From positions 2,164,001-2,228,000 of the forward strand of contig NZ_CP136520.1 in assembly GCF_032813545.1 (NCBI RefSeq): a stretch of DNA of 64,000 nt, read 5' to 3'. The notes beneath the pieces were generated by a model that saw only the letters and a list, made by a program, of their open reading frames with translations, made no database searches and was not told the origin of the DNA. Source of the stretch: Nodosilinea sp. E11. GTDB lineage: Bacteria > Cyanobacteriota > Cyanobacteriia > Phormidesmidales > Phormidesmidaceae. Positions within the stretch are counted from its first letter, which is position 1. Each line of letters opens with the position of its first letter. Both the position numbers and the translations under genes were made by a program. This document shows, piece after piece, positions 37,265 to 58,000 of the stretch.

Positions 37265-37317
37265 AGCGCTACCAAAGTTAAGACTGATACTGAATCCTGA
37301 ATGAATACCCTCGATCT

Positions 37318-38421: not shown

Positions 38422-38431
38422 GGCGGTAGCC

Positions 38432-41094: not shown

Positions 41095-41114
41095 GTTTTA
41101 GGTCTCGGGTTTCT

Positions 41115-41373
41115 GGATCCCCTCCTGGGAGGGGCAGGGGTGGGTTCTTTGGGTTTTGAGATCCCCTCCTGGGAGGGGCAGGGGTGGGTTCTTTGGGTTG
41201 TGGGATCCCCTCCTGGGAGGGGCAGGGGTGGGTTCTTTGGGCTAAAAAGTGGTGATTCTGTATTCAAAAACTCCCTTAGCAAATCCTTTCTGGCCCACCC
41301 CGCCCTCCGGGCACCCCTCCAAGGAGGGGATGGGGCCAACTCGTCTGCTTTAGGAAATTCCACCGAACTGTCC
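41115..41373. repeat. Dispersed element B (minus-strand copy) with three 44-bp tandem units
   Basis: Three copies of a 44-bp unit begin at 41116, 41160 and 41204, each GATCCCCTCCTGGGAGGGG followed by CAGGGGTGGGTTCTTTGGG. Beyond them the sequence matches element B at 29950-30140 in inverse orientation, down to ACCGAACTGTCC at about 41365. It fills the spacer between the permease and ATPase genes. Confidence 0.8.
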
Positions 41374-42201
41374 TCAAATCACATCCGCAAACGTCCGTTC
41401 GTAGGCGCGGAAGTAGCGAATGCCATACCAGAGCAGGAACAGCACAAAGCCGACGGACAGGCTAAAGCCGGGCAGGTATAGGGCAGAGTCGCCGAGGATG
41501 GCCCAGCGGAAGCCGTCGATCACGCCCACCATCGGGTTGAGGGAGTAGAGCCAGCGCCACTGTTCGGGCACCACAGAGCTGCTAAAGCCGACCGGGGAGA
41601 TGTAGAGGCCAAACTGCAAAATGAAGGGAACCACATAACGAAAGTCGCGGTATTTGACGTTGAGGGTGGCCAGCAGCAGGCCGGCCCCCATGGCGGCGGC
41701 GAAGGCAATGGCGATGAAAAAGGGCAGGGTAATAATCCGCCAGCTGGGCACGAAGTCGTAGACCACCATTAGCCCCAGCAGAATAATGCCAGAGATAAAG
41801 AAATCGACCAGGCTGACAATTACGGCGCTGGTGGGTACTACCAGGCGGGGAAAATACACTTTAGAAATTAAGTTGGCATTAGAAATTAAACTATTGCTGC
41901 TCTCCGATAGGGCGTTGGCAAAAAATTGCCAGGGCAGCATGCCTGCAAACACCAAAATCGGATAGGGCACGCCGTCGGAGGGCAGTTGGGCAATTTTGCC
42001 AAATACCACGGTAAACACCACCATGGTCAAAAACGGGCGAATTAAGGCCCAGATAATGCCAATGGCCGTTTGTTTATAGCGCACTAAAATATCGCGCCAG
42101 GCCAAAAAATAAAACAGTTCTCGATAGCGCCAGAGGTCTTGCCAGTACTGGCGCTGGGTGCGGCCAGCGGCAATTACAAGTTCGGCAGCAGGGTCACGCA
42201 T
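41374..42201 (-). CDS. Polysaccharide ABC exporter permease (Wzm-like, ABC-2 family)
   Basis: 275 residues with six membrane segments. The amphipathic start WRYRELFYFLAWRDILVRYKQTAIGIIWALIRPFLTMVVFT is the hallmark of polysaccharide/polyol-phosphate exporters of the ABC-2 family. LNVKYRDFRYVVPFILQFGLYISPVGFSSSVVPEQWRWLYSLNPMVGVIDGFRW is the conserved second half. It forms the membrane channel with the ATPase downstream. First gene of the minus-strand EPS cluster; its promoter must lie in 42202-42578. Confidence 0.92.
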   Translation of the reverse strand: MRDPAAELVIAAGRTQRQYWQDLWRYRELFYFLAWRDILVRYKQTAIGIIWALIRPFLTMVVFTVVFGKIAQLPSDGVPYPILVFAGMLPWQFFANALSESSNSLISNANLISKVYFPRLVVPTSAVIVSLVDFFISGIILLGLMVVYDFVPSWRIITLPFFIAIAFAAAMGAGLLLATLNVKYRDFRYVVPFILQFGLYISPVGFSSSVVPEQWRWLYSLNPMVGVIDGFRWAILGDSALYLPGFSLSVGFVLFLLWYGIRYFRAYERTFADVI

Positions 42202-42578
42202 AGGAAGGGGCCAGGAGAGGAATCTAGTCCTACGGTGAGGGGGGGATGATTGCGATCGCGTTTGCGCTAGAGTCCACGTTCAGAACCCGTTTAATTACCA
42301 CCTATCGTCTCCGCGAATCTACGGAAATTAGGGGATTTAAGCGGATCTACGGTCTCTCTTTTAGAAGAGAGAAGTAGGCCAAATCTGCGGAGCTTTTTAA
42401 GGTCTTAACCGCCGCTTCTAGGCCCGGCCATTATTCCGAGGGGGTTGTCAAAGCTTGATTATGTATTGCCCGTTTCTGCTTCGCCGACGCCCCGTAACTC
42501 CAGCCCGCTAGTTTTTGCCCTCGGCCCAAACTATGCCCTGGGTGCGATCGCCTTGCTATGTAGCTTCTAAATTGCTCT
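42202..42578. promoter_or_regulatory. Divergent regulatory region between the EPS cluster and the export genes
   Basis: 377 bp between the ABC permease (minus) and the Wza-like gene (plus). It has no ORF and is AT-richer than its surroundings. Both EPS transcription units must start here. I cannot identify a convincing -35/-10 pair or operator, though a short imperfect inverted repeat CTCTTTTAGAAGAGAG lies near 42356-42371. Confidence 0.4.
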
Positions 42579-43733
42579 ATGACGTGTCATCTTCTCCAAG
42601 CTTTCTCACCGCTCCGGCCCAGGCTAGCCCTAGCGCTGTGCTGTGCTCCCCTGATCGGCCTCAGTGGCGGTTTCACGACCCCTAGCCTTGCCACCACCAT
42701 GGGGGCCGCCACGGCCCCAAGCCAACCCCTCAACCCCAGCCGCCCCAACCTAGACCAGAGGGCACTGCCCTTTCAGCCCGACCCGACCAGTGGGCCGGTG
42801 TACCCCCTCGATGCCTACCGCCTGACCGTGGGCGACATTGTTTATGTGATCGTTGCCAATGTGCCCGACTACAGCGGCACCTTCCAGGTCATGCCCGATG
42901 GGTCTCTAAACCTACCGGTGCTCGGACGCGTGGAAACCTGGGGCAAGACTCTGACCGAAGTTGAGCAGGCCATTACTGAAGGCTATGCCGCCAGCCAAAT
43001 CTTGGTGGAACCGCGCATCACCGTCACCCTGTCTCAGCTCAGCCCGCTGCGCATCGTGGTGATTGGCGAAGTTAGTCGGCCCGGTGCCTATTCTCTACCG
43101 CCCGATAAGGGGCGACTCCCCACCGTGGCTATGGCCCTAGATGTTGCTGGCGGCATTACCCAGCGAACCGATCTGCGAGCCATTCAGGTGCGGCGGGTGA
43201 GCCCCGACAACCTCCAGGAAGCGACTATCACCGTCAGCCTGTGGGACCTGCTCACCCAGGGAGCCCGCAATCAAGATATTCCCCTGCGAGATGGGGACAC
43301 TATTATGGTGCCCCAGGCGGAGCCGGTCCCGATTCCCACGGTCCGTGAACTAGCCCGGTCTAGTTTTTCGAGCGGGGCGATTCGGGTCAATATCGTCGGC
43401 GAAATTGCCTCCCCCGGTGTGATGGAAGTGGCCCCAGACACCTCGGTCTCTGAAGCGCTGCTGCTAGCGGGCAGCTTTACCCGCCGATCGCGCCAGACAG
43501 AGGTACAACTGCTGCGGCTTAACCCCGATGGCACCGTCACCCAGCGATCGCTGCCGGTAAATTTTGCCAACGCCATCAATGACGAAACCAACCCGCTGCT
43601 GCAAGATCGCGACGTGATTTTAGTGGGTAGAAACTGGTCTGCCTCAGTGGGCGACACCATGGGCACGGTGCTGCAGCCCTTAAATGGTGTTTTTTCTCTC
43701 TTTAATTTGTTTTTGCCTTTCCTCCTGTTTTAA
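42579..43733 (+). CDS. Polysaccharide export protein (Wza-like, SLBB domains)
   Basis: 384 residues. N-terminal signal sequence (about 1-40, LALALCCAPLIGLSGG) without a lipobox, a Pro/Asn-rich linker, the polysaccharide export domain (YRLTVGDIVYVIVANVPDYSGTFQVMPDGSLNLPVLGRV...TVTLSQLSP) and two SLBB-type repeats (RIVVIGEVSRPGAYSLP; RVNIVGEIASPGVMEVAP). Forms the periplasm-to-outer-membrane export channel. The C-terminus ends hydrophobic (VFSLFNLFLPFLLF), which is atypical and could be a membrane anchor. Followed by the Wzc-like gene 34 bp downstream, as is usual for this pair. Confidence 0.9.
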   Translation: MTCHLLQAFSPLRPRLALALCCAPLIGLSGGFTTPSLATTMGAATAPSQPLNPSRPNLDQRALPFQPDPTSGPVYPLDAYRLTVGDIVYVIVANVPDYSGTFQVMPDGSLNLPVLGRVETWGKTLTEVEQAITEGYAASQILVEPRITVTLSQLSPLRIVVIGEVSRPGAYSLPPDKGRLPTVAMALDVAGGITQRTDLRAIQVRRVSPDNLQEATITVSLWDLLTQGARNQDIPLRDGDTIMVPQAEPVPIPTVRELARSSFSSGAIRVNIVGEIASPGVMEVAPDTSVSEALLLAGSFTRRSRQTEVQLLRLNPDGTVTQRSLPVNFANAINDETNPLLQDRDVILVGRNWSASVGDTMGTVLQPLNGVFSLFNLFLPFLLF

Positions 43734-43767
43734 GCCAGTCAATCCTCAGGTAACTCCCCCATCTACC

Positions 43768-46053
43768 ATGACCCACGATCTAGACGTTACTTCAGACACC
43801 CCCACGGCCCCGCCCCGCTCTCTACCGGCGGGGGGCGATCCGGGCTCTAGCGTAGGCATCGTTCTAGGCGTTATACGCCGCAAGTTCTGGCTGATGCTGG
43901 CGCTGGGGATGGCCGCCGGGGCCTTCTCTGTGGTCAAAAACGCACAGGTGGTGCCGGTCTATCAGAGCAGCTTTCGCCTGCTGGTAGAACCCGTGCGCGA
44001 GCAACGCAATCTCGCCCGCCTCACTGACAGCCAACAGGGCACCAAGCCGCAAGAGCTAGACTACATCACCCAGGTTGAAGTGCTGCTCAGCCCCGAAGTT
44101 TTGACTCCCATTCTGGCGGAGGCCGGGAATCGCTATCCTGAGGTCAGCTATGACAGTGTGATCGGTCAGCTCAATGTGTACCGCCTGGGAGAAACCAAAA
44201 TTCTGGAGGTCAAATACAGCAACAACAACCCCGAAAAGGTTAAGGCGCTGCTAGAGGTGATTGCCCAGGGCTACCTGAAATATAGTTTGGAGTCGCAGCG
44301 ATCGCAGTTGCTCCAGGGCATCGCCTTCATCGATGAGCGGCTGCCCCTGATCGAGAACCGGGTCAACAGCCTGCACCAACAGATTCAAGATCTACAGGAA
44401 AATTACCAATTTTTAGAACCCGATGACTTTGCCACCGAGCTGTTTAAACAGACCGCTCAAATTGACCAAACCCGCCTGATGCTGCGGGACGAATTTATCA
44501 CCCTAGAGTCTCAATACAATGCCCTGCTTGACCAGGCCAGCGTCTCAGCCGCCTTGCGCCAATCCGAGGCCTACGAGACTCTGCGCCAAGAGTACCAGGT
44601 GTTGCGCCAGCAGCTAGCCATTGAGTCGGCCCGGTTTGGCCCCAACAGCCCGACCATTCAGCTCATTCAGCGGCAGCAGAGCAACCTGGCCCCCCTACTG
44701 TTTGAAGAGGCCGATCGGGTGATTCAGGCCCAAGTGGCCCAGGTGATGGATGCCATGGCCGTGATCTCTGACCGAGATGCAGAGTTGGCCGCCCGCCAAG
44801 CTGCTCTCAATCAAAAGCTTCAGGCGGTGCCCAGTGTCACGCGCAGCTATCAAGAACTCCAGCGAGAACTGCTGCTCGCCACCACCAGCATGACCCGCTT
44901 TCGCGAAACCAAAGAGGTGCTGCAAATTCAAGCATCCCAAAATGAAATTCCCTGGGAGTTAATTACTCCTCCCACCAATGCCCGTCGCACGCCGAGCACC
45001 AGTCCGTCTAAATCCCTGGTGACTGGCTTTTTGATGGGTGCAATTCTGGGGTTGGCCCTGGGCTACCTGATCGAAAAATTGGCCAATACTTACTACACCC
45101 TTGAAGACATTAAAAGGCGAGTGCCCCTCCCGGTGCTGGGGGCGATTCCTCTGCATCCAGAACTGATCGACGCCGCCCCCGAAGCCCACGTGGTAGACCT
45201 TCGAGCTGGGCCTGTCGCCACCTCGCTATCCGCCGATGCGGAGGTCTTAAAAACCCAGCTGAAGACCATGATCAGCCCCAAGCTAAATAACTGGCAAGAC
45301 TACGTCCTGCAGGCCAAAACCACCAGCCCCTCAGCCCTGGCCCCCGACAACTATGCGGCCAATGGTCACCAGCCCACCGCTCCCGAGGCTAACTCCCCCG
45401 CCGAACGCTGGCTGATGGAATACGACAGCTATGGGTTTTTAGAAGCCTTTCGAGCACTCCATGCCAACCTAGAGACCTTTTCGCCGCGATCGCTCGTGGT
45501 GACCTCGGCCTTGCCCGGTGAGGGGGCCACTACCGTCGCCGTCCACCTAGTCCAGGCCGCCGCTGCCATGGAGCGCAGAGTGCTGCTGGTGGATGGTCAG
45601 TTTCGCCGGGGCGGCACTCGTCTGAGTTCATTGCTAGGTATTGAGTCAGAGCCGGGCCTAAGCGACTACATCAACGGTAAAGCTACCCTCAACGACATCA
45701 CCCAGCGCCTATCGTGGGAAGCCAACCTGTTTGCCATCAGCTCGGGCACCGAGGCCTTCGACCCCACCCGATTGCTGTCATCGGCCCGCATGAAAGACCT
45801 GATGGCGCGGATGGAGAAAAACTTTGACCTGGTGGTCTACACCATGCCACCGCTGATGGGGCTGGCCGATGTTGGGCTAGTAGCCGCCAAGACCGATGGC
45901 GTGCTGCTGGTCACCTCCCTCGGTCGCCGCCACATTGCCGATGCCCTCAACCGCACCCTAGAGCGCATGCAGGTCGCCCGCGTCCCCGTGATTGGGCTGG
46001 TGGTGAACCAAGTGAAGAACTACGCGGTCGATTTCTACGCTAAGTCAGCCTAA
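43768..46053 (+). CDS. Wzc-like chain-length/co-polymerase protein with degenerate kinase domain
   Basis: 761 residues from the ATG at 43768. N-terminal Wzz domain with a membrane segment (about 35-55, FWLMLALGMAAGAFS), a long periplasmic coiled coil (about 150-390) and a second membrane helix (about 420-440). The cytoplasmic domain resembles BY-kinases, but all three nucleotide motifs are altered. Walker A is LPGEGATTVA (near 582-592, no Lys), A' is LLVDGQFRR (near 607-616) and Walker B is VVYTMPPL (near 690-696, no Asp). The C-terminus (NYAVDFYAKSA) lacks a tyrosine cluster. It probably acts as a structural co-polymerase rather than an active tyrosine kinase. Confidence 0.87.
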   Translation: MTHDLDVTSDTPTAPPRSLPAGGDPGSSVGIVLGVIRRKFWLMLALGMAAGAFSVVKNAQVVPVYQSSFRLLVEPVREQRNLARLTDSQQGTKPQELDYITQVEVLLSPEVLTPILAEAGNRYPEVSYDSVIGQLNVYRLGETKILEVKYSNNNPEKVKALLEVIAQGYLKYSLESQRSQLLQGIAFIDERLPLIENRVNSLHQQIQDLQENYQFLEPDDFATELFKQTAQIDQTRLMLRDEFITLESQYNALLDQASVSAALRQSEAYETLRQEYQVLRQQLAIESARFGPNSPTIQLIQRQQSNLAPLLFEEADRVIQAQVAQVMDAMAVISDRDAELAARQAALNQKLQAVPSVTRSYQELQRELLLATTSMTRFRETKEVLQIQASQNEIPWELITPPTNARRTPSTSPSKSLVTGFLMGAILGLALGYLIEKLANTYYTLEDIKRRVPLPVLGAIPLHPELIDAAPEAHVVDLRAGPVATSLSADAEVLKTQLKTMISPKLNNWQDYVLQAKTTSPSALAPDNYAANGHQPTAPEANSPAERWLMEYDSYGFLEAFRALHANLETFSPRSLVVTSALPGEGATTVAVHLVQAAAAMERRVLLVDGQFRRGGTRLSSLLGIESEPGLSDYINGKATLNDITQRLSWEANLFAISSGTEAFDPTRLLSSARMKDLMARMEKNFDLVVYTMPPLMGLADVGLVAAKTDGVLLVTSLGRRHIADALNRTLERMQVARVPVIGLVVNQVKNYAVDFYAKSA

Positions 46054-46130: not shown

Positions 46131-47006
46131 CTAATCAGACCCATCATTGCTCTGCTGCGATCGCCCCAGACCTAAATAGCTCAGAATCGCCAGGGCCAGT
46201 AAAGTGAAAATCTGTCCCCCGCCTGAGCCGTGCCAAAACTGAAACACAGCATCATCGCCTACCGATACGGTCATAATGGCCACGCGAATAACGCTGAGCA
46301 AGGCGGCGATCGCCACGGAGAAGCCCATCAACCGGCCCACTCTCTGCCCAGGGGTAATAGCGGCTAACAACACCGAAATCTGCATCAACAGGCCCAAAAG
46401 TGCCGCCCCCGTGCAGGCAAACTCTACATCTACGGTGCCTGCGGGCAACTGAATAAAACTGCCCTGCTGCACCACCTCAAACCCTAACCAGTGGAGCCCA
46501 AACGCCGCGATCGCTGCCGTTGTTACCCGCAGGGGCATCCCCACAACCGTTTCTAGTAGCAGCGGCAAGGTCCTAGGCGGCACCGACAGCGCCACTACCA
46601 ACGCCCAAACCTGCCACCCACACCACCCCCGCCACCCCCGCACCAGCAGCGACCAACCGGCAAAGGCAAACAGCGGAAACAAGCGCACAAAGGCCGTGGC
46701 TGTGCCGTAAAGTGGCCCTGCCACCAGGCCGAGCAGCGCGAGCAACCCTGCCCCCCAGATTTGGGCTGAAGGCGATCGCCGCTGGCCAAGCGATAACTGC
46801 GGCTGCACCTGAGTTGCGATCGCCCCCCAAAACAGCAGGCTGAGCACCACCTGATCTACGTTCCCCGTCACCGCCATAATTAGAGCCAGATGCAGGCCAA
46901 CCAGCCCCAGGCCAACCAGCGGCAGAATACGCAGTCTAGAAACAGTCGCAGTCGGAAAGAATGGATTGCGCATGCCAGCAAACGAGGTAACCAACGCAGA
47001 AAGCAT
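46131..47006 (-). CDS. Exosortase family transpeptidase (cyanoexosortase-like)
   Basis: 291 residues, about eight membrane helices. The three exosortase active-site positions are visible: Cys198 in VEFACTGAALL, Arg241 in SVIRVAIM and His259 in FWHGSGGG. Exosortases recognise C-terminal PEP-CTERM-type signals and are thought to cleave and transfer proteins in EPS-producing bacteria. A candidate substrate with a PFE motif is encoded at 54.6 kb. HpsJ is encoded just upstream on the same strand and the EPS export genes converge on it. A MITE-like element ends 3 bp before the ATG and supplies the only ribosome-binding-site-like AGGA; an in-frame ATG at 46973 is the alternative start. Confidence 0.85.
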   Translation of the reverse strand: MLSALVTSFAGMRNPFFPTATVSRLRILPLVGLGLVGLHLALIMAVTGNVDQVVLSLLFWGAIATQVQPQLSLGQRRSPSAQIWGAGLLALLGLVAGPLYGTATAFVRLFPLFAFAGWSLLVRGWRGWCGWQVWALVVALSVPPRTLPLLLETVVGMPLRVTTAAIAAFGLHWLGFEVVQQGSFIQLPAGTVDVEFACTGAALLGLLMQISVLLAAITPGQRVGRLMGFSVAIAALLSVIRVAIMTVSVGDDAVFQFWHGSGGGQIFTLLALAILSYLGLGRSQQSNDGSD

Positions 47007-47215: not shown

Positions 47216-48079
47216 TTAACGAATTCGATGCTGCATGCGCTTGGGGCGGCGGCCCAGCATGCGGCTGACGCGGCGGCCAAAAGCGGTGGCCGGATTGTGC
47301 TGAGGTTGATCAGCGGTTGTCAAGGTGCCCTTACCCCGTCTCGCCCAACCGCTGATCAACCAGGCATAGAGGAACAAAAAGCTGCCCAAAAAGCTTTCTG
47401 AAACCAGCTTCAGACTGTTTTTAATCAGATTTTGCTTCACATTGGCACGGGCTTGTTCAGCCCTAGTGTCAGCCTGTTCCTTAGCTTGGTTGAGGTTATT
47501 CAAAATTTGGGCACGGGCATCTTCTGGACTAAGGGCCGCATTGGGAGAGGAAAGTAGGTTTAGCAACTGCTGAGGAGTAGCCTGTTGCAGCTCGACCTGA
47601 TTGGATTCAATCTGCTGACGCTGCTGGTTTACCTGAGTACTAATCTGCTCATTATTAAATTGATGAATCCGCAGCGTGTTCGCCACCGTTAAGGGAATCA
47701 GGAAAAACAAAATTATGCTCAAAATAAGGGTCAGCCAAGAGAAAAACTTGAGCAGGGGCCATTCAATCTCCTGCCGCTCAACCCCATCCCCGGCAAAGAC
47801 CAACGCCAACGCCAGCAAGGGAATCGGCACCAGCTTAATCAAGTTCCCGACAAACTGGTATTCCCACACCGGATCCATAAATTTCGCCGGTATCAATACA
47901 TAGAGAAAATCAATGAACGATATCAGCAGTAGACCATAGCCCAGCACTCGGGCGAGGCGAAATAAGTAGCCCGTCGCCATCGGTTGGGCGCTAGCCTCAG
48001 CGGGTGGGGCGATCTCTTCCAACCTCTCTCTGGGTGGAATTTCTCTCGGCAGAGCATTTGACCTAGCAGATGAAGCCAT
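47216..48079 (-). CDS. HpsJ family membrane protein
   Basis: 287 residues from the ATG at 48079, with AGAAG upstream; a start at 48109 is possible. After a Pro/Glu-rich N-terminus come membrane segments (LARVLGYGLLLISFIDFLYVLIP; LVPIPLLALALVFAG; WLTLILSIILFFLIPLTVA), a Gln/Asn-rich coiled coil (about 155-225) and a final hydrophobic stretch (SFLGSFLFLYAWLISGWAR) with a basic tail. This layout and the opening FMDPVWEYQFVGNLI match the HpsJ family, named from hormogonium polysaccharide loci. Its biochemical role is unknown. Position next to an exosortase is consistent with EPS/surface export. Confidence 0.78.
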   Translation of the reverse strand: MASSARSNALPREIPPRERLEEIAPPAEASAQPMATGYLFRLARVLGYGLLLISFIDFLYVLIPAKFMDPVWEYQFVGNLIKLVPIPLLALALVFAGDGVERQEIEWPLLKFFSWLTLILSIILFFLIPLTVANTLRIHQFNNEQISTQVNQQRQQIESNQVELQQATPQQLLNLLSSPNAALSPEDARAQILNNLNQAKEQADTRAEQARANVKQNLIKNSLKLVSESFLGSFLFLYAWLISGWARRGKGTLTTADQPQHNPATAFGRRVSRMLGRRPKRMQHRIR

Positions 48080-48405
48080 AGCAGTCTTCTCATAAATAGC
48101 TAAGGCCACCCTAGCCAGAGAATGTTTGCGTTCTAGTCTGTTTTAGAGCGATTTGAGACATTACCTAGCAGCCCCCGACAATTGCCGTAAAGAACCGTAA
48201 AGAGAACCCCCTATCGTCATTCCTAGATAGGAATACTGAGGGAAGATTCTAAGATCAAGATAGTTTGCGAATCGCACGCGCTTTTAGAGGTCACCTATGA
48301 ACGTCAGCTGGGAGTAACTCTGTCAATTTGGGTACAACAAAGGCACCCTGTAGAGCAAGAGGCTGATATATCAAAAATAAGAGAGACCCTAGGGCTGTTT
48401 TGGCG
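48080..48405. promoter_or_regulatory. Divergent intergenic region (hpsJ / large GGDEF-EAL gene)
   Basis: 326 bp with no gene. AT-rich towards 48365-48385 (GATATATCAAAAATAAGAGA), where the promoter of the large sensor gene may lie. No repeats noticed. Confidence 0.35.
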
Positions 48406-51400
48406 ATGAAAATTCTTTTTTTAGAAAGTGCTGGCTGGGATGGGGCGGCATTGAGTCAGGCGATCGCGGCCTTAAACTGGCCCTCACCCCTCACCATTCA
48501 AATAGCCAGTCCAGCTGCGATCGCCGCCAACGCCCTAGCCACCTACGACGTTGTTTTTTTGCCCCTAGAGACAGCAACCAAAATAGTTACAGTGGCCCCT
48601 CTAGCCCTGGGAGAAAAGACCCCCTACTGGGTTGTCTTAGCCAACGGCAACGCCCTAGACAGCCTTGCCCCAGAGATGCCACCCTACGGATGGGACTACC
48701 TAACGCAAGACACGGTAGCCCAGCATCGCTTACCCCTGGCCTTAACGCGAATTTTAAATGCAGCCCAACGGGAACAGCAATTACAGGCGTTAGCCAGCGA
48801 AAATCATTTGCTCAAGACCGCTAGTAATCTGGTGCCCAATCAGATTTTTATGCAAGATCCGGAGGGGCGCTACTGCCTGGTCAACCGAGAGGCCAAAGCC
48901 CACAACGCCACCCCTGAAGCCCTGCCGCTTGGGTTTACTGGCGTCAGCGTTGATATCAGCGATCGCAGACGCCTTGAAGCAGAACCCACCCACCCACCCA
49001 GTTTCCTGGCCAGACAGCAAGAAATACTTGAACTGATCGCCCTGGGAACGCCACTACCAGAGGTGCTTGACCGCCTGATAAAAAATTTAGAATCCCAAAC
49101 CGAGGGCATGGTGGGCTCGGTGCTACTGCTGCATGATCACCGGCTCTGGCATGGCGCTGCACCCAGCTTGCCAGACCAGTACCAGCAGGCCATCAACGGC
49201 ATGGCGATCGGTCCCCAGGAAGGGTCTTGCGGCACCACCGCCCACCGCAAAAAACCTGCCATTGTGACCGACATTGCCACCGACCCCCTGTGGGAAAACT
49301 ATCGACATCTGGCCTTACCCCACGGGTTAAGAGCCTGCTGGTCAGTGCCGATCGTCTCCCGCACCGGCCGAGTGCTGGGCACCTTTGCCCAGTATTACCA
49401 AACCCCGCGCGCACCCAGTGCCCAAGACTGGGATCTAATTAACGCCGCCGTTAAGCTGGCCAGTCTGGCCATTGAGCAGCAGCGCAGCGACGAAGCCCTG
49501 CGGGAAAGCGAAGCGCGCTTTAGGGCCATTTTTGAGCAGGCGACAGTTGGCATCTGTCAGGTTTCCTTGGAAGGTCGGTTTTTGCGAGTAAACCAGCAGT
49601 TTTGCCGGTTTTTAGGCTACACCAGGAAGGAATTGTTAACTCACACCTTTCAAGAGGTGACCTACCCAGACGATTTAGGCACCTCTCTGAAGGGTTATCG
49701 CCATCTGCTCATGCAAAAGTTCTCGACGTTTACCCTAGAGCAACGCTACATCCGCAAAGATAGAACCGTTGTTTGGGGCAGCGTGAGCGCCACACTCATG
49801 CAAGATGGCAGCCAATCAAACCCCTGCTTTATTGCCGTCGTCGAAGATATTACCGCTCGCAAACAGGCCGAAATGGCCTTGCAGAACTTGGTTGAAGGTG
49901 CTGCCGCTGTCACCGGGCAAGACTTTTTCCCGGCTCTGGCGGCCTATCTGGCCACGGCCTTGCAAATTCGCTATGTCATCATCTCCAAACAGCTGGGGGA
50001 AACCTACACGTCCCATGCCTTTTGGGCCGATGGCCACATTCGGCCCAAAATTTCTGGCCGTTTAGCCAACACCCCTTGCGGTGTAGCAATTCGTGAAGGC
50101 TTTTTTGCCTGCTCCCAAAACCTACAGCAGCAGTTCCCCGACTATGGGTTGCTAAAAGAGCTGGGGGCAGAAGCCTATATTGGCGTCAGGCTGACCAATT
50201 CAACCGGCGACAGTATCGGGAGCCTGTGCATTTTGGATGATAAGCCGATCGAGCATCTGCAACGGGCTTCGAACATCTTGCGAGTGTTTGCGGCTAGGGT
50301 AAGTGCCGAGCTCGATCGCCAGGCCGCCACCGATGCTCTCCAGCAGTTCAACCAAACCCTAGAAAGCCAGGTCGAAGCCCGCACCGCCGAACTCCAGCAG
50401 ACCAACGGCCAGCTTCAGCAGTCTCTGGCCGAACGGCAACTGCTGGTGGCCTTGGTGGAAAACAGCACCAGTTTTATCATCACTGCCACCCCAGCCGGTC
50501 AGATCACCTACCTCAACCGGGCCGGGCGGCAGCTGGTGGGCTTGGCAGAAACCACGGATATCTCCCGCTACACCGTGGCTGACTTTCATTTCCCCGCCGA
50601 CTGGCCCAAGCTAGCAAAGACGGTACTGCCGCCCCTACGACGAGGTGGAACCTGGCAGGGCGAAGTTAACCTGCGGCATTTTCAGACCGGGGCGGCGCTG
50701 CCTATGACACACAACGCCTTTGCCATCAACCATGCCCAAACCGGCGAACCCATAGCCTTCGCTGGCATTCTGCGCGACATCACCGACCTCAAACAAAAAG
50801 AAGCCCAGCTCGAACAACTCTCCCAGCGTCTTACCCTGGCTGTGCAGTCGGGCCGGTTTGGCATTTGGGAGTACGGCACGGCCCAAAACCGGCTGCTGTG
50901 GGACGATCGCATGTGCGAACTCTACGGCATTGCCTCCGCCGACTTTAGGGGTACTCTCGCAGACTGGGAGCAGCGGGTTCACCCCGAGGATCTAGCCCAG
51001 GCCCAGGCGGTATCCGATCGGGCGGTCAGGGGAGAATGCCTCTACGATACTGAATTTCGGGTTGTGCACCCCAATGGAGACATCCGCCATCTGAAGGCCT
51101 ATGCCTTCTATGAGCGTAACGACACAGGAGAGGTGACTCGGGCCATTGGCGTCAATTTTGACATTACCGATCGCAAACGAGCCGAAGCGGCGCTGCGGGA
51201 GAGTGAATCCCGGTATCGCCGCCTGATGGATGGAGCCAGTGACGCCATTATCATGGCCAGCAGCGACGGCAGGGTGGTGGACGTAAACCAAAAAGCGCTG
51301 ACCCTGCTGGGCTATAGCTACGACGAACTGTTGGGCATGCACGTCTTCCAGCTGCATCCGCCCGAATTGCTGGAGCAAGATAGGGCTAACTTTACTGATC

Positions 51401-53724
51401 TCATCACGCACGAGCATTCTCCCCCCATGCTCACCCAGGTGCTCCGCAAAGATGGCCAGCGGCGGCCCGTAGAAATTACCGCTGCGATCATCGAAATCAA
51501 CAGCCAGCCCATGGCCCAGAGCATTTTTCGAGACATTAGCGATCGCCAGCAGGCAGAGCGCGAAATGCAGCAGCTGCGGGAGCGCCTTCAGTTTTTGCTG
51601 TCGGCCAGCCCAGCGATCATTTACACCTGTGAGCCTTCCGGCCAGTTCTCCTGCACCTACATCAGCGAAAATGTTGAGCGAATTTTGGGCTATACCCCAG
51701 CCGAATGGCTGGCTCAACCTGGGTTTTGGGTCCGCTGCCTGCACCCAGACGACGCTGAGCAGGTTTTGACGGCGCTAGAGATGCTGTTTAACTTCGGCAC
51801 CTACGCCCATGAATATCGTCTGCGGCACAAGACCGGCCACTACTACTGGGTCCACGACGAACTCAGACTGATCCGCGATCCTCAGGGCAATCCGGTCGAA
51901 ATAGTGGGATACGTCGCCGATGTCAGCGGTCGCAAACAGGCCGAACTCGCGCTGCAACAGCTCAACGAAGATCTGGAGTCGGTGGTACACCAGCGCACCA
52001 CCGAACTGCGTGACCAGGCCAACCTGCTGGAGACCATCCTCAACAGCATGGGCGATGGGGTGCTGGTGGCGAACCAGGCCGGTGAGATCATTCTCTATAA
52101 CCCAGCGGGCCAGCAGATCACCCAAATTGAACAGCTTCCCCATGCAGATCCGGCGGTTTGGCAAACCCACTGGGGCCTCTTTTTGCCCGACAACCAGCCC
52201 TGCCCCCTCGATCAAATTCCGCTATGGCGGGCGCTACAAGGAGAATCCTTTGACCGCACCGAAGTTATTGTGCGCCATCAGCACTGCCCTGAGGGACGCT
52301 ACCTAGAGGTTTCGGGTCGCCCCCTAAAAGACGATGCCCAGCAATTGATCGGCGGACTGGCGGTTTTTCGCGATGTCAGCGATCGAAAACGGAGCGAAGA
52401 CCAGCTGCGCTACAACAGCCTGCACGACAGCCTAACCGACTTACCCAACCGCTACTTTTTGACCCAGCACCTCGACCAGATGATCGTGCAGGGGCACCAT
52501 GCTGAGCAGGCCGGGTTTGCCGTGCTATATCTCGACCTCGACCACTTCAAGGTGATCAACGACAGCCTCGGCCACGCCGTCGGCGATCAGGTGTTGGTGC
52601 AAATTGCCCGCCAGCTAGAAGCGCTGCTCCCCCCAGCAGGCCTAGCGGCCCGTCTGGGCGGGGATGAATTTGTCGTGGTGCTGCCGCCTGTAACCGAGGC
52701 CCAGTCGCCGACGGCGATCGCCCAGCAGATCTTGCAGATGTTTCAGCAGCCTTTGGCGATTGGCGAACGAGAAATATTTGTCAAAACCAGCATTGGCCTG
52801 GTAGTGGGGCTCACGCCCTACCAGACCGCCGCCGAAATTCTCCGCGATGCCGATATTGCCCTGTACCAGGCCAAAGGTCAGGGCAGAAATCAGTATGCCC
52901 TGTTTAATGAAGCCATGCATATCCATGCCCTGGAGCGTTTGCAGCTAGAGCACGACCTGCGCAACGCCCTGGTCAACGAAGAGCTGGTGGTCTACTACCA
53001 GCCCATCATCGACATCCAACGCCATTGCGTCAGTGGATTCGAAGCCCTGGTGCGCTGGCAACACCCAACTCGGGGGTTTGTCACGCCCGATAAATTTATT
53101 CCCCTGGCGGAAGAAACCGGTTTGATTGCCCCCCTAGACCGCTGGGTGCTACAGACGGCCTGCCGTCAGCTGGTAGCCTGGCAACAGCAATTTCCCGACT
53201 ACGGCGACTTGACCATCAGCACCAATCTGGTGGTTACCGATTTGATTTACCCCGATCTACTGAGCAGCATCGATCGCATTCTGATCGACACTGGGCTCGA
53301 CGGGCGACACCTAATTTTAGAGATTACAGAAAGTATGCTGATCGAGCAGCTGCAACCCATGGCCCAGGTGCTAGAAAAGCTCCAGAGCCGAGGCATTCGC
53401 ATCAGCATTGACGACTTTGGCACGGGCTACTCGTCGCTCAGCTACCTTCACCAGCTGCCGGTCAACGCGTTTAAGATCGATCGCTCCTTCGTCACGCAGA
53501 TGGAATCCAGCGACAAAAATGCCGAAATCGTTAAAACGATCATTACCCTCAGTAAGCGCTTGGGCTTAAAGATCATTGCCGAAGGCGTAGAGACAGACGC
53601 CCAGCTGCAATACCTCAAGGCGTTGAACTGCGATCGCGCCCAGGGGTACCTGTTTGCGCCGCCGCTGCCCGCCGCCGCTGCCGCCGACTTTTTGACCCAT
53701 TTCAGGGACAGATTTGTGAATTAG
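48406..53724 (+). CDS. GAF/PAS multidomain diguanylate cyclase-phosphodiesterase
   Basis: 1772 residues from the ATG at 48406; a TTG at 48400 is less likely. Order: a receiver-like N-terminus lacking phosphorylation residues (1-125), a shortened PAS remnant (about 140-195), GAF (about 210-360, GSCGTTAHRKKPAIVTDI), PAS (about 370-495), a second GAF (about 500-645), then five PAS domains (about 680-1310), GGDEF (about 1340-1500, RLGGDEFVVVL) and EAL (about 1520-1765). The GGDEF lacks an RxxD inhibitory site (PPAG at that position). The EAL keeps EALVRW, TNLV, LEITES, DDFGTGYSSL, KID, AEGVET and QGY, so both activities are possible. Cytoplasmic, no membrane segments. Ligands unknown. Confidence 0.9.
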   Translation: MKILFLESAGWDGAALSQAIAALNWPSPLTIQIASPAAIAANALATYDVVFLPLETATKIVTVAPLALGEKTPYWVVLANGNALDSLAPEMPPYGWDYLTQDTVAQHRLPLALTRILNAAQREQQLQALASENHLLKTASNLVPNQIFMQDPEGRYCLVNREAKAHNATPEALPLGFTGVSVDISDRRRLEAEPTHPPSFLARQQEILELIALGTPLPEVLDRLIKNLESQTEGMVGSVLLLHDHRLWHGAAPSLPDQYQQAINGMAIGPQEGSCGTTAHRKKPAIVTDIATDPLWENYRHLALPHGLRACWSVPIVSRTGRVLGTFAQYYQTPRAPSAQDWDLINAAVKLASLAIEQQRSDEALRESEARFRAIFEQATVGICQVSLEGRFLRVNQQFCRFLGYTRKELLTHTFQEVTYPDDLGTSLKGYRHLLMQKFSTFTLEQRYIRKDRTVVWGSVSATLMQDGSQSNPCFIAVVEDITARKQAEMALQNLVEGAAAVTGQDFFPALAAYLATALQIRYVIISKQLGETYTSHAFWADGHIRPKISGRLANTPCGVAIREGFFACSQNLQQQFPDYGLLKELGAEAYIGVRLTNSTGDSIGSLCILDDKPIEHLQRASNILRVFAARVSAELDRQAATDALQQFNQTLESQVEARTAELQQTNGQLQQSLAERQLLVALVENSTSFIITATPAGQITYLNRAGRQLVGLAETTDISRYTVADFHFPADWPKLAKTVLPPLRRGGTWQGEVNLRHFQTGAALPMTHNAFAINHAQTGEPIAFAGILRDITDLKQKEAQLEQLSQRLTLAVQSGRFGIWEYGTAQNRLLWDDRMCELYGIASADFRGTLADWEQRVHPEDLAQAQAVSDRAVRGECLYDTEFRVVHPNGDIRHLKAYAFYERNDTGEVTRAIGVNFDITDRKRAEAALRESESRYRRLMDGASDAIIMASSDGRVVDVNQKALTLLGYSYDELLGMHVFQLHPPELLEQDRANFTDLITHEHSPPMLTQVLRKDGQRRPVEITAAIIEINSQPMAQSIFRDISDRQQAEREMQQLRERLQFLLSASPAIIYTCEPSGQFSCTYISENVERILGYTPAEWLAQPGFWVRCLHPDDAEQVLTALEMLFNFGTYAHEYRLRHKTGHYYWVHDELRLIRDPQGNPVEIVGYVADVSGRKQAELALQQLNEDLESVVHQRTTELRDQANLLETILNSMGDGVLVANQAGEIILYNPAGQQITQIEQLPHADPAVWQTHWGLFLPDNQPCPLDQIPLWRALQGESFDRTEVIVRHQHCPEGRYLEVSGRPLKDDAQQLIGGLAVFRDVSDRKRSEDQLRYNSLHDSLTDLPNRYFLTQHLDQMIVQGHHAEQAGFAVLYLDLDHFKVINDSLGHAVGDQVLVQIARQLEALLPPAGLAARLGGDEFVVVLPPVTEAQSPTAIAQQILQMFQQPLAIGEREIFVKTSIGLVVGLTPYQTAAEILRDADIALYQAKGQGRNQYALFNEAMHIHALERLQLEHDLRNALVNEELVVYYQPIIDIQRHCVSGFEALVRWQHPTRGFVTPDKFIPLAEETGLIAPLDRWVLQTACRQLVAWQQQFPDYGDLTISTNLVVTDLIYPDLLSSIDRILIDTGLDGRHLILEITESMLIEQLQPMAQVLEKLQSRGIRISIDDFGTGYSSLSYLHQLPVNAFKIDRSFVTQMESSDKNAEIVKTIITLSKRLGLKIIAEGVETDAQLQYLKALNCDRAQGYLFAPPLPAAAAADFLTHFRDRFVN

Positions 53725-53921: not shown

Positions 53922-54524
53922 ATGTCGGCTGTTAGTCCCTCTGTGTATCGGCAAAGCCCTAGTCTGTGGCAGCGCTGGAAACGCTTTTTCTGGCGGTGTC
54001 TACTCAGCAGCACCTGCCTGCTGTTGCTATACGGGCCAGTCAACCTGGCGATCGCCCACTGGCTATGGCCCCAGCCCGACGGCATCCTAATTTTGGGTGG
54101 TCAGCCCGATCGCGAAGGGGTTGCGGCTCGCCTAGCCAAAGTTCAGCCCGATCTACCGCTCTGGTCATCGTCCGGATTAGGCCCCGATCAGGCCTATCCC
54201 ATCTTTGATGCGCTTGGGGTTAGCCGCGATCGCATCACCTTCGACTACAGAGCAGTCGATACTGTCTCCAACTTCACCACTTTGGTGAAAACCTTTCAGC
54301 AGCAAAACCGGCATCACCTCTACCTGATCACCTCCGACTACCACATGCCCCGCGCCCGTGCGATCGCCACCATCATCCTGGGCAGCCACCATATCGCGTT
54401 TACCCCCGTTGCAGCCCCTTCTACCCAGCCCGCCGAATCGCCCTTTCGCATTGGCCGCGACATGGTGCGCTCCTGGCTCTGGCTCACCACCGGCTGGAGC
54501 GGTGCAGCGATCCGCAACGGTTGA
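53922..54524 (+). CDS. YdcF/SanA/ElyC family (DUF218) membrane protein
   Basis: 200 residues. One membrane segment near the N-terminus (about 26-45, LLSSTCLLLLYGPVNLAIA), then the DUF218 fold: DGILILGGQPDREGVAARLAK, SSGLGPDQAYPIFDALGV, VSNFTTLV and HLYLITSDYHMPRARAIAT. Family members affect cell-envelope glycan metabolism; the enzymatic activity is not settled. A ribosome binding site (AGGA) is 7 bases from the ATG. It precedes the candidate exosortase substrate by 90 bp, and YdcF-family genes frequently accompany EPS/exosortase loci, so a link is plausible. Confidence 0.82.
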   Translation: MSAVSPSVYRQSPSLWQRWKRFFWRCLLSSTCLLLLYGPVNLAIAHWLWPQPDGILILGGQPDREGVAARLAKVQPDLPLWSSSGLGPDQAYPIFDALGVSRDRITFDYRAVDTVSNFTTLVKTFQQQNRHHLYLITSDYHMPRARAIATIILGSHHIAFTPVAAPSTQPAESPFRIGRDMVRSWLWLTTGWSGAAIRNG

Positions 54525-54614: not shown

Positions 54615-55367
54615 ATGTCTCTATCTGTTGGCACCATTGAAACCTACTCTACTGAGTCTGATCAAATTCAATACGATGGCTTAAACACCCAAGAAAGTAA
54701 CTCACTAACCCTGTCAGACAGCAACCTTTGGCTGGTAGATACGACCGGCCTCAGCGATCAAACCACGGACAGTTTCAGTCTGTACACCTCCACCAGTCTC
54801 TATAGCGATGGGGAAGGCTACCTGGCCCCCATGGCAAGCACCAACATGGAGTCCACCACGGGGGGGATCACCATGTATACTCGCGACCCCAACGCCGACA
54901 ACATTCTGTACACCAGCGATCCTTCCCTAGAACTGAGCGAGAGCGCTCCACTCCTGGCGATCGAGGGCGATACCCAAGGTGGCTCCTCCCTAAGCGCCAG
55001 CAGTGGAACCTTTGGCTCTAGCACGACAGATAGCGACTTTACCCTGACCAACTTAGACGCTACGACCTCAGACTCCTTTGCCTCAGGCTCCCTCGCGCTG
55101 CCCGGTAGCAGCGGTGGAGAAGGCAGCACAGCAGAAGGCAGCGCAGTAGCAGGCAGCACAGCGACAGCGATCGAGGTCACCGAGGTTGCGAGCAACGACC
55201 TCGCATCCGCCGCCGATATTAAAGCCGCCCCCTTTGAAATCCACAGTGCCATTGGCCTGTTAGTCTTGGGCGCTATGATCGCAAGTCGTCGATGGGGCTG
55301 GCGGCGTCAGACATTCATGCCTCAACTCAGCTCTGCTGCGTCCTCTACACCGCTGCCATCTAGCTGA
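54615..55367 (+). CDS. Ser/Thr-rich protein with PFE-CTERM-like sorting signal (candidate exosortase substrate)
   Basis: 250 residues, strongly enriched in Ser, Thr, Gly and Asp, with low-complexity stretches (EGSTAEGSAVAGSTATA). Near the C-terminus is a tripartite signal: PFE motif (206-208, in KAAPFEIHSAIG), a hydrophobic helix (GLLVLGAMIA) and a basic cluster (SRRWGWRRQ). This is the arrangement of PEP-CTERM-type exosortase targets, and the PFE variant is the cyanobacterial form. Two oddities: no N-terminal signal peptide is visible (MSLSVGTIETYSTES), and about 15 residues follow the basic cluster. Probably surface-exposed and possibly glycosylated. No known homologue recognised for the main body. 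Confidence 0.65.
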   Translation: MSLSVGTIETYSTESDQIQYDGLNTQESNSLTLSDSNLWLVDTTGLSDQTTDSFSLYTSTSLYSDGEGYLAPMASTNMESTTGGITMYTRDPNADNILYTSDPSLELSESAPLLAIEGDTQGGSSLSASSGTFGSSTTDSDFTLTNLDATTSDSFASGSLALPGSSGGEGSTAEGSAVAGSTATAIEVTEVASNDLASAADIKAAPFEIHSAIGLLVLGAMIASRRWGWRRQTFMPQLSSAASSTPLPSS

Positions 55368-55483: not shown

Positions 55484-58000
55484 ATGGTCAATTTCTTAGC
55501 CCGCCGCGCTCAATCCCTCTCTCCTGCAGACCAGAGCGCTCGCGCCATTCGCCTTTCCATCGTGACCCAGTTTTTTCCGCCCGACTTTGCGGCCACCGGG
55601 CAATATATGGACGAACTGGCCACTCACCTAGGGCAGCAAGGGTTTGAGGTCCAGGTTTTTACTGGCCAGCCCAGCTATGCCTTCGAGGTGGCCGAAGCCC
55701 CCGCCACAGAAGACAAAGGCCCGGTTCACATCACCCGATCCAACTTTCTGCGCAACCGCTCCCGCCGTATGACCGGGCGCACCCTCAGCAGCCTGGCCTT
55801 TTGCCTGCATACTGCCTGGCATCTGCGGCACCAGCGCCATCGGGGCGATATCACGCTATTTGTTAGCGAACCGCCCTACGTTCAAGTCGTTGGCTTTTTG
55901 ATGAGCTGGCTCTTTGGCACCGCCTACGTCTCATTGGTCTACGACCTGTACCCTGATGTGGTCACAGGGCTGGGCATGCTGCCCCCGCACCACTGGATTG
56001 TGCGCCTGTGGGATGCCATTAACCGCCGCGTGTGGCAGCGAGCCGAGGCGATCATCGTGCCCTGCGAAACCATGAAGGCCCGCATCGTGGCCAAACACCC
56101 CACCCTGGCAGACCAGATCACCGTCATCCACAACTGGTCTGACCCAGAGGCGATCAAACCTCTGGCCAAGGCCGACAACAGCTTCGCCCAAGAGCATGGC
56201 ATTCAAAACACCTTCACCATCCTCTACTCGGGCAACATGGGCCGCTGCCACGACATGGAGACCATCATCGGGGCAGCCCAGGCCCTGGCCGACGAGCCGG
56301 TTCAGTTTTTGTTCATTGGCGGCGGGCCGAAACGAGAGGCTACCCAACAACAGGTGGAAAGCCTGGGCCTAACCAATTGCCGCTTTCTGCCCTACCAAGA
56401 CAAAGCCCTACTGCCCCAATCGCTCACCGCTTGCGACCTGCATTTGATCAGCATCGACACCGATATGGAAGGGTTGGTTGCCCCCAGTAAATTTTATTCG
56501 GCCCTGTCCTCGGGCAAACCCGTAGCGATTATCTGTGAACGCCATTCTTACCTGCGGGGGCTAGTGTCAAAGGCCAACTGCGGAGCGGCCTTCAGCAACG
56601 GCGACAGCCAGGGGTTAGCCAGCTTCATTCGCTACCTGATGAAGGATGGCGAAATCAACCAGCAGCTGGGCCTTTCGGGGCATCGGTTTATTCGAGAAAA
56701 CTATACGGTGCAGGCGATTAGCCGCCAATATTATCGGTTGATTCAGCGGGCGGTGGTCAAAAATGTCGACCTCTACCGGGCGCTAGACAACAACGAATTT
56801 GAACTCTATTACCAACCCATCGTCCACTTGGGCAATGGGCGAATTGATACCCTTGAGGCGCTCGTGCGGTGGCACCACCCCCAGCGGGGCCTGCTAGAAC
56901 CAGGCGATTTCATCAATGCCGCGAAGGACACCGACTTGATTATTCCCCTGGGCTGGTGGGTGCTGGATACCGCCTGTCGTCAACTCGCCAACTGGCATCA
57001 ACAATTTCCTGAAAAGCGCTGCCGCATCAGTATTAACTTAGGCACTCAGCAATTTCTTCATCCCGAGTTGATCTCTCGCCTTGACCAGGCACTCATGACC
57101 CACAAACTGCGGGGAGAAGACCTGGTGCTGGAAATTAAAGACCACACCATCATGGTCGATACTGCTGCAACAACTGGGTTATTGATGCAGCTGCAAGCTC
57201 GGGGTATTCGAGTCTGTATTGACGACATGGGCAGTAACTATACGTCGCTCAGTTTTCTGCATCGGTTTCCGGTCAGCAGCCTCAAAATTGATGCCAAAAC
57301 CATTAACCGGCTAGATATTGACACCAAGCTGGCGGAGTGGCTAAAGAGCTTGATTGTCATGACCTATGACCTCCAGATCACCCTGGTTGCCATGGGCGTA
57401 GAAACCGCTTTTCAGCACCGACGCACCCGCGAAATGGGCATTGCCTACGGCCAGGGCTACGGTTTTTCGAGGCCTGAACCAGCGGCAAACATCACCCGTT
57501 TTTTGGCTCACCACAACCCGTTTTCTTTTTTGCTCGAGCCTCTACCTACAGCATCTGCCATGCCCCACGCTGACAACACTCCCCTGGTGCTAGTCGTCGA
57601 TGACGATCGCTCGCTTCGCAAATTGCTAACCATGGCCATCAAGCAATCTGGCTACCGCACGATTGAAGCCACCAATGGCCGAGAAGCCTTAGAACTGTAT
57701 CAGCAAGAATCTCCCGATCTCGTGTTGCTCGATGCGATGATGCCAGAAATGAACGGGTTTGCCTGCTGTCGCCAGCTTCGACTGTTGCAGTCGGCTCAGG
57801 TGCTCGCCACGTCACCCCTAGATCAAAGCGCGTCGTCTATTCAATCTAATGATGAGTTTCCCATCTTGATGATCACGGCCCTAGACGACGACCATTCGGT
57901 AGAAAGTGCGTTTGCTGCCGGTGCCACAGACTACATTACGAAACCTGTGAACTGGTCAATTCTAAATCAGCGGCTCAAGCGGCTACTCAAGCAAGACTGA
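55484..58000 (+). CDS. Glycosyltransferase family 4 - EAL - receiver fusion protein
   Basis: 838 residues from the ATG at 55484; an upstream TTG at 55418 would add implausible sequence. Part 1 (about 1-423) is a WcaI/WbuB-like GT4: RLSIVTQFFPPDFAATGQYM, LVYDLYPDVVTGLGML, FTILYSGNMGRCHD, VAPSKFYSALSSGKPVAI. Part 2 (about 428-680) is an EAL domain with LEALVRW, ISINLG, VLEIKD, IDDMGSNYTSL, LKID and GQGY, but the AEGVE motif reads AMGVE, so hydrolysis is doubtful while c-di-GMP binding may persist. Part 3 (about 698-838) is a receiver with VLVVDDDRS, the phosphoacceptor in LLDAMMPEMNGF and the lysine in YITKPVNW. No frame disruption is seen at the joins. It suggests a sugar transferase controlled directly by c-di-GMP and/or phosphorylation. 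Confidence 0.88.
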   Translation: MVNFLARRAQSLSPADQSARAIRLSIVTQFFPPDFAATGQYMDELATHLGQQGFEVQVFTGQPSYAFEVAEAPATEDKGPVHITRSNFLRNRSRRMTGRTLSSLAFCLHTAWHLRHQRHRGDITLFVSEPPYVQVVGFLMSWLFGTAYVSLVYDLYPDVVTGLGMLPPHHWIVRLWDAINRRVWQRAEAIIVPCETMKARIVAKHPTLADQITVIHNWSDPEAIKPLAKADNSFAQEHGIQNTFTILYSGNMGRCHDMETIIGAAQALADEPVQFLFIGGGPKREATQQQVESLGLTNCRFLPYQDKALLPQSLTACDLHLISIDTDMEGLVAPSKFYSALSSGKPVAIICERHSYLRGLVSKANCGAAFSNGDSQGLASFIRYLMKDGEINQQLGLSGHRFIRENYTVQAISRQYYRLIQRAVVKNVDLYRALDNNEFELYYQPIVHLGNGRIDTLEALVRWHHPQRGLLEPGDFINAAKDTDLIIPLGWWVLDTACRQLANWHQQFPEKRCRISINLGTQQFLHPELISRLDQALMTHKLRGEDLVLEIKDHTIMVDTAATTGLLMQLQARGIRVCIDDMGSNYTSLSFLHRFPVSSLKIDAKTINRLDIDTKLAEWLKSLIVMTYDLQITLVAMGVETAFQHRRTREMGIAYGQGYGFSRPEPAANITRFLAHHNPFSFLLEPLPTASAMPHADNTPLVLVVDDDRSLRKLLTMAIKQSGYRTIEATNGREALELYQQESPDLVLLDAMMPEMNGFACCRQLRLLQSAQVLATSPLDQSASSIQSNDEFPILMITALDDDHSVESAFAAGATDYITKPVNWSILNQRLKRLLKQD

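Follow-up and report, generated by a model that had tools for sequence, protein, structure and literature searches.

A cyanobacterial protein family joining a GT4 glycosyltransferase, a catalytically degenerate EAL domain and a response-regulator receiver on one chain

Results

A glycosyltransferase, an EAL domain and a receiver in one open frame

In a 64,000-nucleotide stretch of the Nodosilinea sp. E11 genome (contig NZ_CP136520.1, positions 2,164,001 to 2,228,000 of the forward strand; hereafter the window, numbered from its first base), a single gene joins a WcaI/WbuB-like GT4 glycosyltransferase (GT), an EAL domain and a response-regulator receiver (REC). The architecture is more than chance, because the same full-length frame is present in at least 16 of 388 cyanobacterial genomes. 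The sequences point to intact GT motifs, an EAL domain that appears catalytically dead, an intact receiver site, a single origin and a polysaccharide locus as context. We propose, with slightly better than even confidence, a response regulator that has an exopolysaccharide (EPS) glycosyltransferase as its output, an XssS-type hybrid kinase as its probable phosphodonor and the non-catalytic EAL domain as transducer.

The 838-codon frame runs without interruption from the ATG at 55484 to the stop ending at 58000 (Table 1), and a TTG at 55418, 66 bases upstream, is an alternative start. An earlier sequence-only reading of the window had described this polypeptide with the correct coordinates. No stop or frameshift separates the domains and the frame is open in 16 genomes, which rules out a frameshift or an assembly artefact. 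Both GT4 halves exceed their Pfam gathering cut-offs (residues 39-222, PF13579 and PF13439; residues 236-396, PF00534), as does PF13692, and the domain thus belongs to GT4. It is only WcaI-like, however: the WcaI family model NF007640 matches residues 26-423 with 159.9 bits, under its cut-off of 276, and TIGR04007 (wcaI) gives 84 bits against a cut-off of 800. The GT motifs of eight fusions match those of 34 standalone proteins. A fold search returned the GT4 structures MshA, BshA and GlgM as neighbors of the GT part, and a sequence search of this part alone against solved structures gave no match at E <= 1e-5. The EAL domain (residues 429-664, 216 bits) is also above its Pfam gathering cut-off; the Response_reg match starts at residue 702 (91 bits) and is split into two stretches by an insert. 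The AlphaFold model (predicted local distance difference test 87.8, predicted template modeling score 0.67) carries no inter-domain confidence, hence we claim no domain arrangement from it. Promoter and terminator scans yielded no more than scans of shuffled sequences.

Distribution and origin of the fusion

A profile built from 11 fusion proteins was searched against 388 cyanobacterial genomes at E <= 1e-150. It matched 108 of them, and at least 16, from five families, encode the full-length GT4-EAL-REC protein, which is therefore not unique to the 6.1-Mb window genome; two candidates were scored per genome, making 16 a lower bound. The most distant members are 46-47% identical to the window protein, and the carriers include Nodosilinea nodulosa PCC 7104 (L025), Phormidium sp. 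FACHB-1136, Elainella saxicola E1 and Lyngbya confervoides BDU141951. In one further genome (G313, 68% complete) the fusion is broken: the gene is split over three overlapping frames (L144:6660-9324), by decay or assembly error. This fusion was excluded from all counts apart from its receiver, which is part of the receiver tree. The scan beyond cyanobacteria used six short peptide patterns over the collection and took the best 80 of 106 loci. In a plasmid search, none of the 5000 matches listed covered 80% of the query.

In a tree of 95 GT domains, a branch with a Shimodaira-Hasegawa-like approximate likelihood ratio (SH-aLRT) support of 100 separates the 16 GTs of the fusions from 79 standalone GTs, the number that a motif filter accepted out of 99 loci examined. 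A second, smaller tree, in which seven standalone rows served as outgroup, also recovered the fusion clade (support 100/99). Since the fusion GTs form one clade apart from their 79 standalone relatives, the joining of the three domains probably happened once. The same genome carries a standalone GT paralogue (G000:C7:1688527-1689735, 49% identical). Among 33 own-genome matches of the fused EAL, the best reach 42-43% identity, so none is close. Derivation from the adjoining GGDEF-EAL gene is unsupported, this neighbor (42%) being no nearer than other EALs of the genome. A Rosetta-stone arrangement, with a separate EAL or related receiver beside a standalone GT, was likewise rejected: neither occurs within 3 kb in any of 73 standalone loci.

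Genome G025 may encode a longer variant. A 1196-residue frame (L101:10118-13708, minus strand) carries a cyanoexosortase C (361.7 bits, cut-off 225) in frame with GT-EAL-REC; upstream of it is a PTPA-CTERM-like protein. The beginning of the GT also occurs as a truncated second copy (L101:5155-5730, minus strand; 87% over about 157 residues), some 5 kb away from the full gene and close to a transposase-like frame (8766-9965, named by eye).

The EAL domain lacks a complete catalytic set

Ten EAL active-site positions were compared between the 16 fusions and two ordinary EAL proteins of the window used as controls. The catalytic set (E458, N518, E550, D580, D581, K601, E637, E640 and Q657) is intact in both controls, whereas it is whole in none of the 16 fusions. 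The roles of these residues follow work on RocR and other EAL proteins, as does the view that the AEGVE glutamate is essential for catalysis, a point on which a search of the open-access literature found no paper. The window protein reads AMGVE at this motif, as the sequence-only reading had pointed out (Met637, codon 57392-57394), and thus lacks one catalytic residue. It and its closest relative keep E458, R462, N518, D580, D581, K601 and Q657 and are without only the AEGVE and TE glutamates.

Across the family, D581 is lost in 13 proteins and E637 in 11; K601 is replaced by Asp or Glu in five; D580 and E550 are changed in four each and R462 in three; Q657 is lost in two and N518 in one. E553 is Asp in 11, and the E-A-L letters themselves are altered in five. 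One clade of 11 members has lost E637 and kept K601, two clades with five members have Asp or Glu at 601 and keep E637, and no fusion has K601 and E637 together. By parsimony on the tree, two losses of K601 cost the same as one loss and one regain. It is likely that the EAL was inactivated by more than one route, the number of inactivations not being fixed by the tree. The contact residues are mostly kept in the window protein, G025 and G039 and are lost in G112 and G195, both of which have lost K601, Q657, D581 and R462 together. Because the residues fail at different places in different clades, contacts to cyclic di-GMP (c-di-GMP) do not appear to be what selection keeps across the family. 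The claim of conserved contact motifs thus holds for the window protein and fails for the 16 members taken together, and the idea of a c-di-GMP sensor with kept contacts finds no support as a property of the family.

Within the genus, ratios of nonsynonymous to synonymous substitution rates (dN/dS) were 0.06-0.23 for the GT, 0.08-0.19 for the EAL and 0.09-0.17 for the receiver (15 pairs, many of them with dS above 1, near saturation). The EAL range suggests that this domain, although catalytically dead, is still constrained. A cysteine directly before the EAL DD loop (Cys578, window 57215-57217) is present in all 16 fusions and in neither control.

The receiver keeps its phosphorylation site

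The five residues of the receiver site (D706, D707, D750, T798 and K820) are intact in 15 of the 16 fusions, including the window protein, in agreement with the intact phosphoacceptor reported earlier. The sixteenth receiver (G112, L143:1586-1966, minus strand) has Glu and Asn changes that could mimic permanent phosphorylation.

Among 128 matches to the fused receiver in its own genome, the best after itself is the receiver of a REC-GGDEF protein just behind a hybrid kinase (109.9 bits), followed by that of the single-receiver protein of the window at 18440-18922 (71.4 and 51.3 bits in two pieces); the next other match has 63.8 bits. Scored with a model of the 16 fused receivers, seven related receivers, which include one of Synechocystis pSYSM and that of the REC-GGDEF just named, reach 133-164 bits, and the others tested no more than 86. 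In a tree of 41 receivers (17 fusion rows; short-match rows and duplicate loci dropped; class-wide receivers not added), the fused receivers and seven labeled XssR, one of which is the REC-GGDEF, form one clade (100/99) with unresolved internal order. A specific identity with XssR is weakened by a class-wide search that found REC-GGDEF and other proteins of the same type. The fused receiver is, as judged by sequence, a member of a cyanobacterial group common to XssR and REC-GGDEF regulators.

An exosortase-linked polysaccharide locus

The fusion gene is the end of a polysaccharide cluster that comprises glycosyltransferases, Wzt, Wzm, Wza-like and Wzc-like proteins, an exosortase, an HpsJ-like A protein, a DUF218 protein and a CTERM-like protein (Table 1). 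Exosortase, HpsJ-like A and CTERM protein, the last one below its model cut-off, together make up a cyanoexosortase A system. No sulfotransferase was recognized by Pfam among the window genes scanned. The cluster encodes c-di-GMP enzymes of its own (PAS-GGDEF-EAL, REC-GGDEF and REC-GGDEF-EAL). Inside the glycosyltransferase block, a FIST sensor protein, a histidine kinase and REC-GGDEF form a set (32631-36170, minus strand) that is a possible local source of c-di-GMP.

Table 1. Features of the window discussed in the text
Feature	Position	Strand	Evidence
GT4-EAL-REC protein	55484..58000	+	Open frame, Pfam, at least 16 full-length homologues in 388 genomes
GT4 glycosyltransferase, WcaI/WbuB-like, residues 1-423	55484..56752	+	Pfam, NCBIfam, tree, fold, motifs
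EAL domain, residues 428-665, catalytically degenerate	56765..57478	+	Pfam, residue comparison, fold search, tree
Receiver, residues 700-836; predicted phosphoacceptor Asp750 at 57731-57733	57581..57991	+	Pfam, residue comparison
Ser/Thr-rich 250-residue protein, C-terminal APFEIHSAIGLLVLGAMIASRRW, PFE-CTERM-like sorting signal	54615..55367	+	NF050011 14.8 bits, below cut-off 24
DUF218 protein, conserved neighbor	53922..54524	+	Pfam; near fusion in other loci too
PAS-GAF-GGDEF-EAL protein; intact EAL control	48400..53724	+	Pfam, catalytic set intact
HpsJ-like protein, cyanoexosortase A-associated	47216..48109	-	NF050013 231.5 bits, cut-off 140
Exosortase, nearest cyanoexosortase A	46131..47006	-	TIGR03763 90.6 bits, below 150; PF09721 89.8 bits, above cut-off
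Export block	39760..46053		NCBIfam best matches, below equivalog cut-offs
Wzc-like tyrosine kinase	43684..46053	+	Within export block
Wza-like protein	42579..43733	+	Within export block
Wzm	41374..42201	-	Within export block
Wzt	39760..41016	-	Within export block
Glycosyltransferase block of same polysaccharide cluster	19175..39754	-	Pfam
REC-GGDEF protein	32631..33857		Pfam
Single-receiver protein, XssR homologue	18440..18922	+	Pfam; pSYSM 60780-61199, 137 bits, 49%
Hybrid histidine kinase with receiver and HPt, XssS homologue, candidate phosphodonor	15496..18462	+	Pfam; pSYSM 61313-64342, 507 bits summed
NACHT/STAND protein, XssQ homologue	13284..15542	+	tblastn to pSYSM 57972-60257, 340 bits, 36%
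REC-GGDEF-EAL protein	10747..12495		Pfam

The fusion loci were compared with 73 standalone GT loci, of which 50 extend 7 kb or more on both sides. Distances were taken between edges in the standalone loci and between centres in the fusion loci. Of the 16 fusion loci, 9 have exosortase and HpsJ homologues within 8 kb, as against 2 and 1 of the 73 standalone loci, respectively; those of the window, at about 10 and 9 kb, are not among the nine. An XssQ, XssS or XssR homologue lies within 8.2 kb in 5 of 16 versus 0 of 73. Fisher tests of these differences, which ignore the relatedness of the loci, gave 8e-7, 2e-7 and 1e-4. A PFE-type C-terminus was seen within 4.5 kb upstream in 13 of 16 fusion loci (by eye, from a pattern list with spurious lines), with a PYE variant in G184, and the PFE-CTERM NCBIfam model matches six of eight tested proteins upstream of other fusions, two of them above its cut-off. 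No exosortase was seen in the loci of G012, G039, G298, G109, G149 and G195, some of which are on short contigs. Wzc is found within 3 kb in 46 of the 73 standalone loci. The suspected association of the fusion with EPS loci is thus supported, in the form of cyanoexosortase/HpsJ/PFE-CTERM polysaccharide loci.

Xss homologues and a candidate kinase

The hybrid kinase at 15.5-18.5 kb, proposed earlier as a phosphotransfer partner, is real (Pfam domains HisKA, HATPase_c, Response_reg and Hpt, the histidine phosphotransfer domain) and a candidate donor, and it proves to be an XssS homologue. The window genes starting at 13284, 15496 and 18440 have as their best plasmid matches the adjacent NACHT, hybrid kinase and receiver genes of Synechocystis pSYSM. 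PMC8205485 locates xss on pSYSM, calls XssQ a STAND protein and treats XssR/XssS as a two-component pair. This description, rather than locus numbers, suggests that the three matches are XssQ, XssS and XssR.

Xss homologues occur within 8.2 kb of the fusion in G175 and G149 (S, R and Q), G298 (S and R), G109 (S) and G209 (R and Q); the count disregards an XssR marker match that every fusion locus shows at about +1 kb, which stems from the fused receiver. A short receiver of the fused type is on the same contig, 29-46 kb away, in the window genome (G000), G025, G012 and G002, far away in G009, and on other contigs in G005 and G039. Searched against the window genome, the kinase encoded next to the G149 fusion matches the 15496-18462 kinase best (559 versus 340 bits). 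The window genome also has a second XssS-like hybrid kinase (L177:7414-11360), followed by the REC-GGDEF with the receiver nearest to the fused one; this kinase is 52% identical over its core to that of G149.

Discussion

Because the GT motifs and the receiver are intact, the EAL domain appears dead and the locus is one of polysaccharide assembly, we favor a receiver-controlled glycosyltransferase. The GT4 part would transfer a sugar during repeat-unit building of the cyanoexosortase-linked polysaccharide. The C-terminal receiver would accept a phosphoryl group on Asp750, its probable donor being an HPt-bearing hybrid kinase of the XssS type such as the cluster encodes, and the signal would pass through the EAL domain, which, without phosphodiesterase catalysis, would serve as a folded transducer (for dimerization or as a partner surface). 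Sugar transfer might then be raised or lowered, or the enzyme recruited to the export machinery. Phosphorylation, its donor, the direction of its effect and the role of the EAL domain are the steps that we infer. The sign of the effect cannot be guessed from homology, because removal of XssS raises the polysaccharide in Synechocystis and removal of XssR abolishes it, as the accessible portion of PMC8205485 reports. More tentatively, one phosphorelay might set both the making and the working of the EPS machinery, from an XssS-type kinase and HPt to XssR (transcription through XssQ) and to the GT-fused receiver, the EAL having joined in active form, been inactivated by different routes and lent its fold as signal path; we give this wider scheme a minority chance.

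Several observations weigh against the proposal. E458 is kept in all fusions and Q657 in 14 of 16, which a pure spacer would not need. In G112 the receiver site reads D, N, E, T, K; the acidic pair contains an Asn and the phosphoacceptor is replaced by Glu, so that phosphorylation is, to judge from these residues, dispensable there. The receiver is also the most divergent domain within the genus (68-80% identity to the window protein, compared with 77-90% for the EAL and 84-93% for the GT). Its group is found in 242 of 388 genomes at E <= 1e-30 and is not Xss-specific; with the fusion-built model, REC-GGDEF and other proteins score up to 174 bits, some of them above Synechocystis XssR. Moreover, in 11 of 16 fusion loci no Xss homologue lies closer than about 8 kb, in the window the distance is 38-42 kb, and the loci of G039 and G195 show neither an exosortase nor PFE-CTERM nearby. 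According to PMC8205485, many cyanobacteria have the Xss set near a sulfated polysaccharide cluster; its closeness to the fusion may thus reflect a shared cluster and not a direct partnership.

The sequence-only reading had c-di-GMP and phosphorylation jointly controlling EPS sugar transfer on the same chain; the receiver site and the EPS locus speak for this, while the family-wide state of the c-di-GMP contacts speaks against its first half. In such a scheme, the degenerate EAL would bind c-di-GMP without cutting it and, with the receiver, set GT activity, much as in FimX or LapD but with a GT as output. We give it an appreciable minority chance. The residues kept in the window protein and its closest relative and the c-di-GMP enzymes of the cluster fit it, and c-di-GMP control of polysaccharide GTs is established for BcsA and PgaC/PgaD (PMC12564702) and for HfsJ (PMC8846402), according to the portions of these papers available. 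The family-wide losses at K601, D581, R462 and Q657 and in the E-A-L letters count against it, above all the joint loss of the four residues in G112 and G195. As the window protein keeps most contacts, c-di-GMP sensing is possible for its own clade.

If the EAL and receiver were only a scaffold, holding the GT with the export or sorting machinery at an unchanged catalytic rate, a degenerate EAL under purifying selection, the tight link to the exosortase/HpsJ/PFE-CTERM set and the Glu in place of the phosphoacceptor in G112 would all be accommodated. We consider this unlikely, as a scaffold would not require five phosphorylation-site residues, which are intact in all other members down to 46-47% identity. 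That the EAL is an active phosphodiesterase lowering c-di-GMP beside the GT seems to us very improbable: the strong Pfam score and a fold shared with 5m1t, 3n3t and other active phosphodiesterases agree with it, but no fusion has a whole catalytic set. The receiver-controlled glycosyltransferase remains the reading that we prefer.

If it is correct, an enzyme that transfers sugar in polysaccharide assembly is itself controlled directly by two-component phosphorylation, and not only through its gene; in the cases compared below, such control runs through transcription or c-di-GMP binding. A c-di-GMP enzyme domain would also have been repeatedly stripped of its chemistry and yet kept, with the steps from enzyme to transducer readable from living members. 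Exosortase sorting, the Xss relay and polysaccharide synthesis meet here in one testable locus, also in the culture-collection strain Nodosilinea nodulosa PCC 7104.

Comparison with known systems

No description of a GT-EAL-REC fusion was found in the open-access literature searched, a search that leaves most subscription papers outside. Enzyme-output response regulators, degenerate EAL effectors and c-di-GMP-controlled GTs are all known, and the fusion is a new arrangement of them. Its GT is about 50% identical to many cyanobacterial standalone GT4 proteins of the WcaI/WbuB type (NF007640) and has the same motifs. Unlike the fusion, those proteins end after the GT (about 420-460 residues). 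They are encoded next to Wzc and Wzm/Wzt; an exosortase is a rare neighbor (2 of 73), and none of the 73 loci has an Xss homologue within 8 kb.

As in FimX and LapD, the EAL fold is present without the full catalytic set, and FimX also has a receiver (PMC12564702). The differences are that the output of the fusion is an enzyme on the same chain, that the contact residues decay within the fusion family, and that the FimX receiver is described as degenerate in the available text of that paper, whereas the fused receiver is intact in nearly every member. BcsA (through PilZ), PgaC/PgaD, HfsJ and BgsA likewise tie a polysaccharide GT to c-di-GMP-type signaling; the portions of the literature at hand describe no EAL or receiver on their GT chains, and the fusion has a soluble GT4 fold.

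Receiver and enzyme share one chain in PleD-type REC-GGDEF and RocR-type REC-EAL proteins too, and the fused receiver is of the cyanobacterial REC-GGDEF type. In contrast to these proteins, the receiver of the fusion is C-terminal and the output is a glycosyltransferase. A further regulatory parallel is the synechan system of Synechocystis PCC 6803, whose three regulators XssS, XssR and XssQ all have homologues in the window cluster. According to the available parts of PMC8205485 and PMC13125312, the Xss regulators control glycosyltransferase genes for this sulfated exopolysaccharide by transcription. The Synechocystis relay thus acts on transcription through XssQ, whereas here a related receiver is fused to the glycosyltransferase itself.

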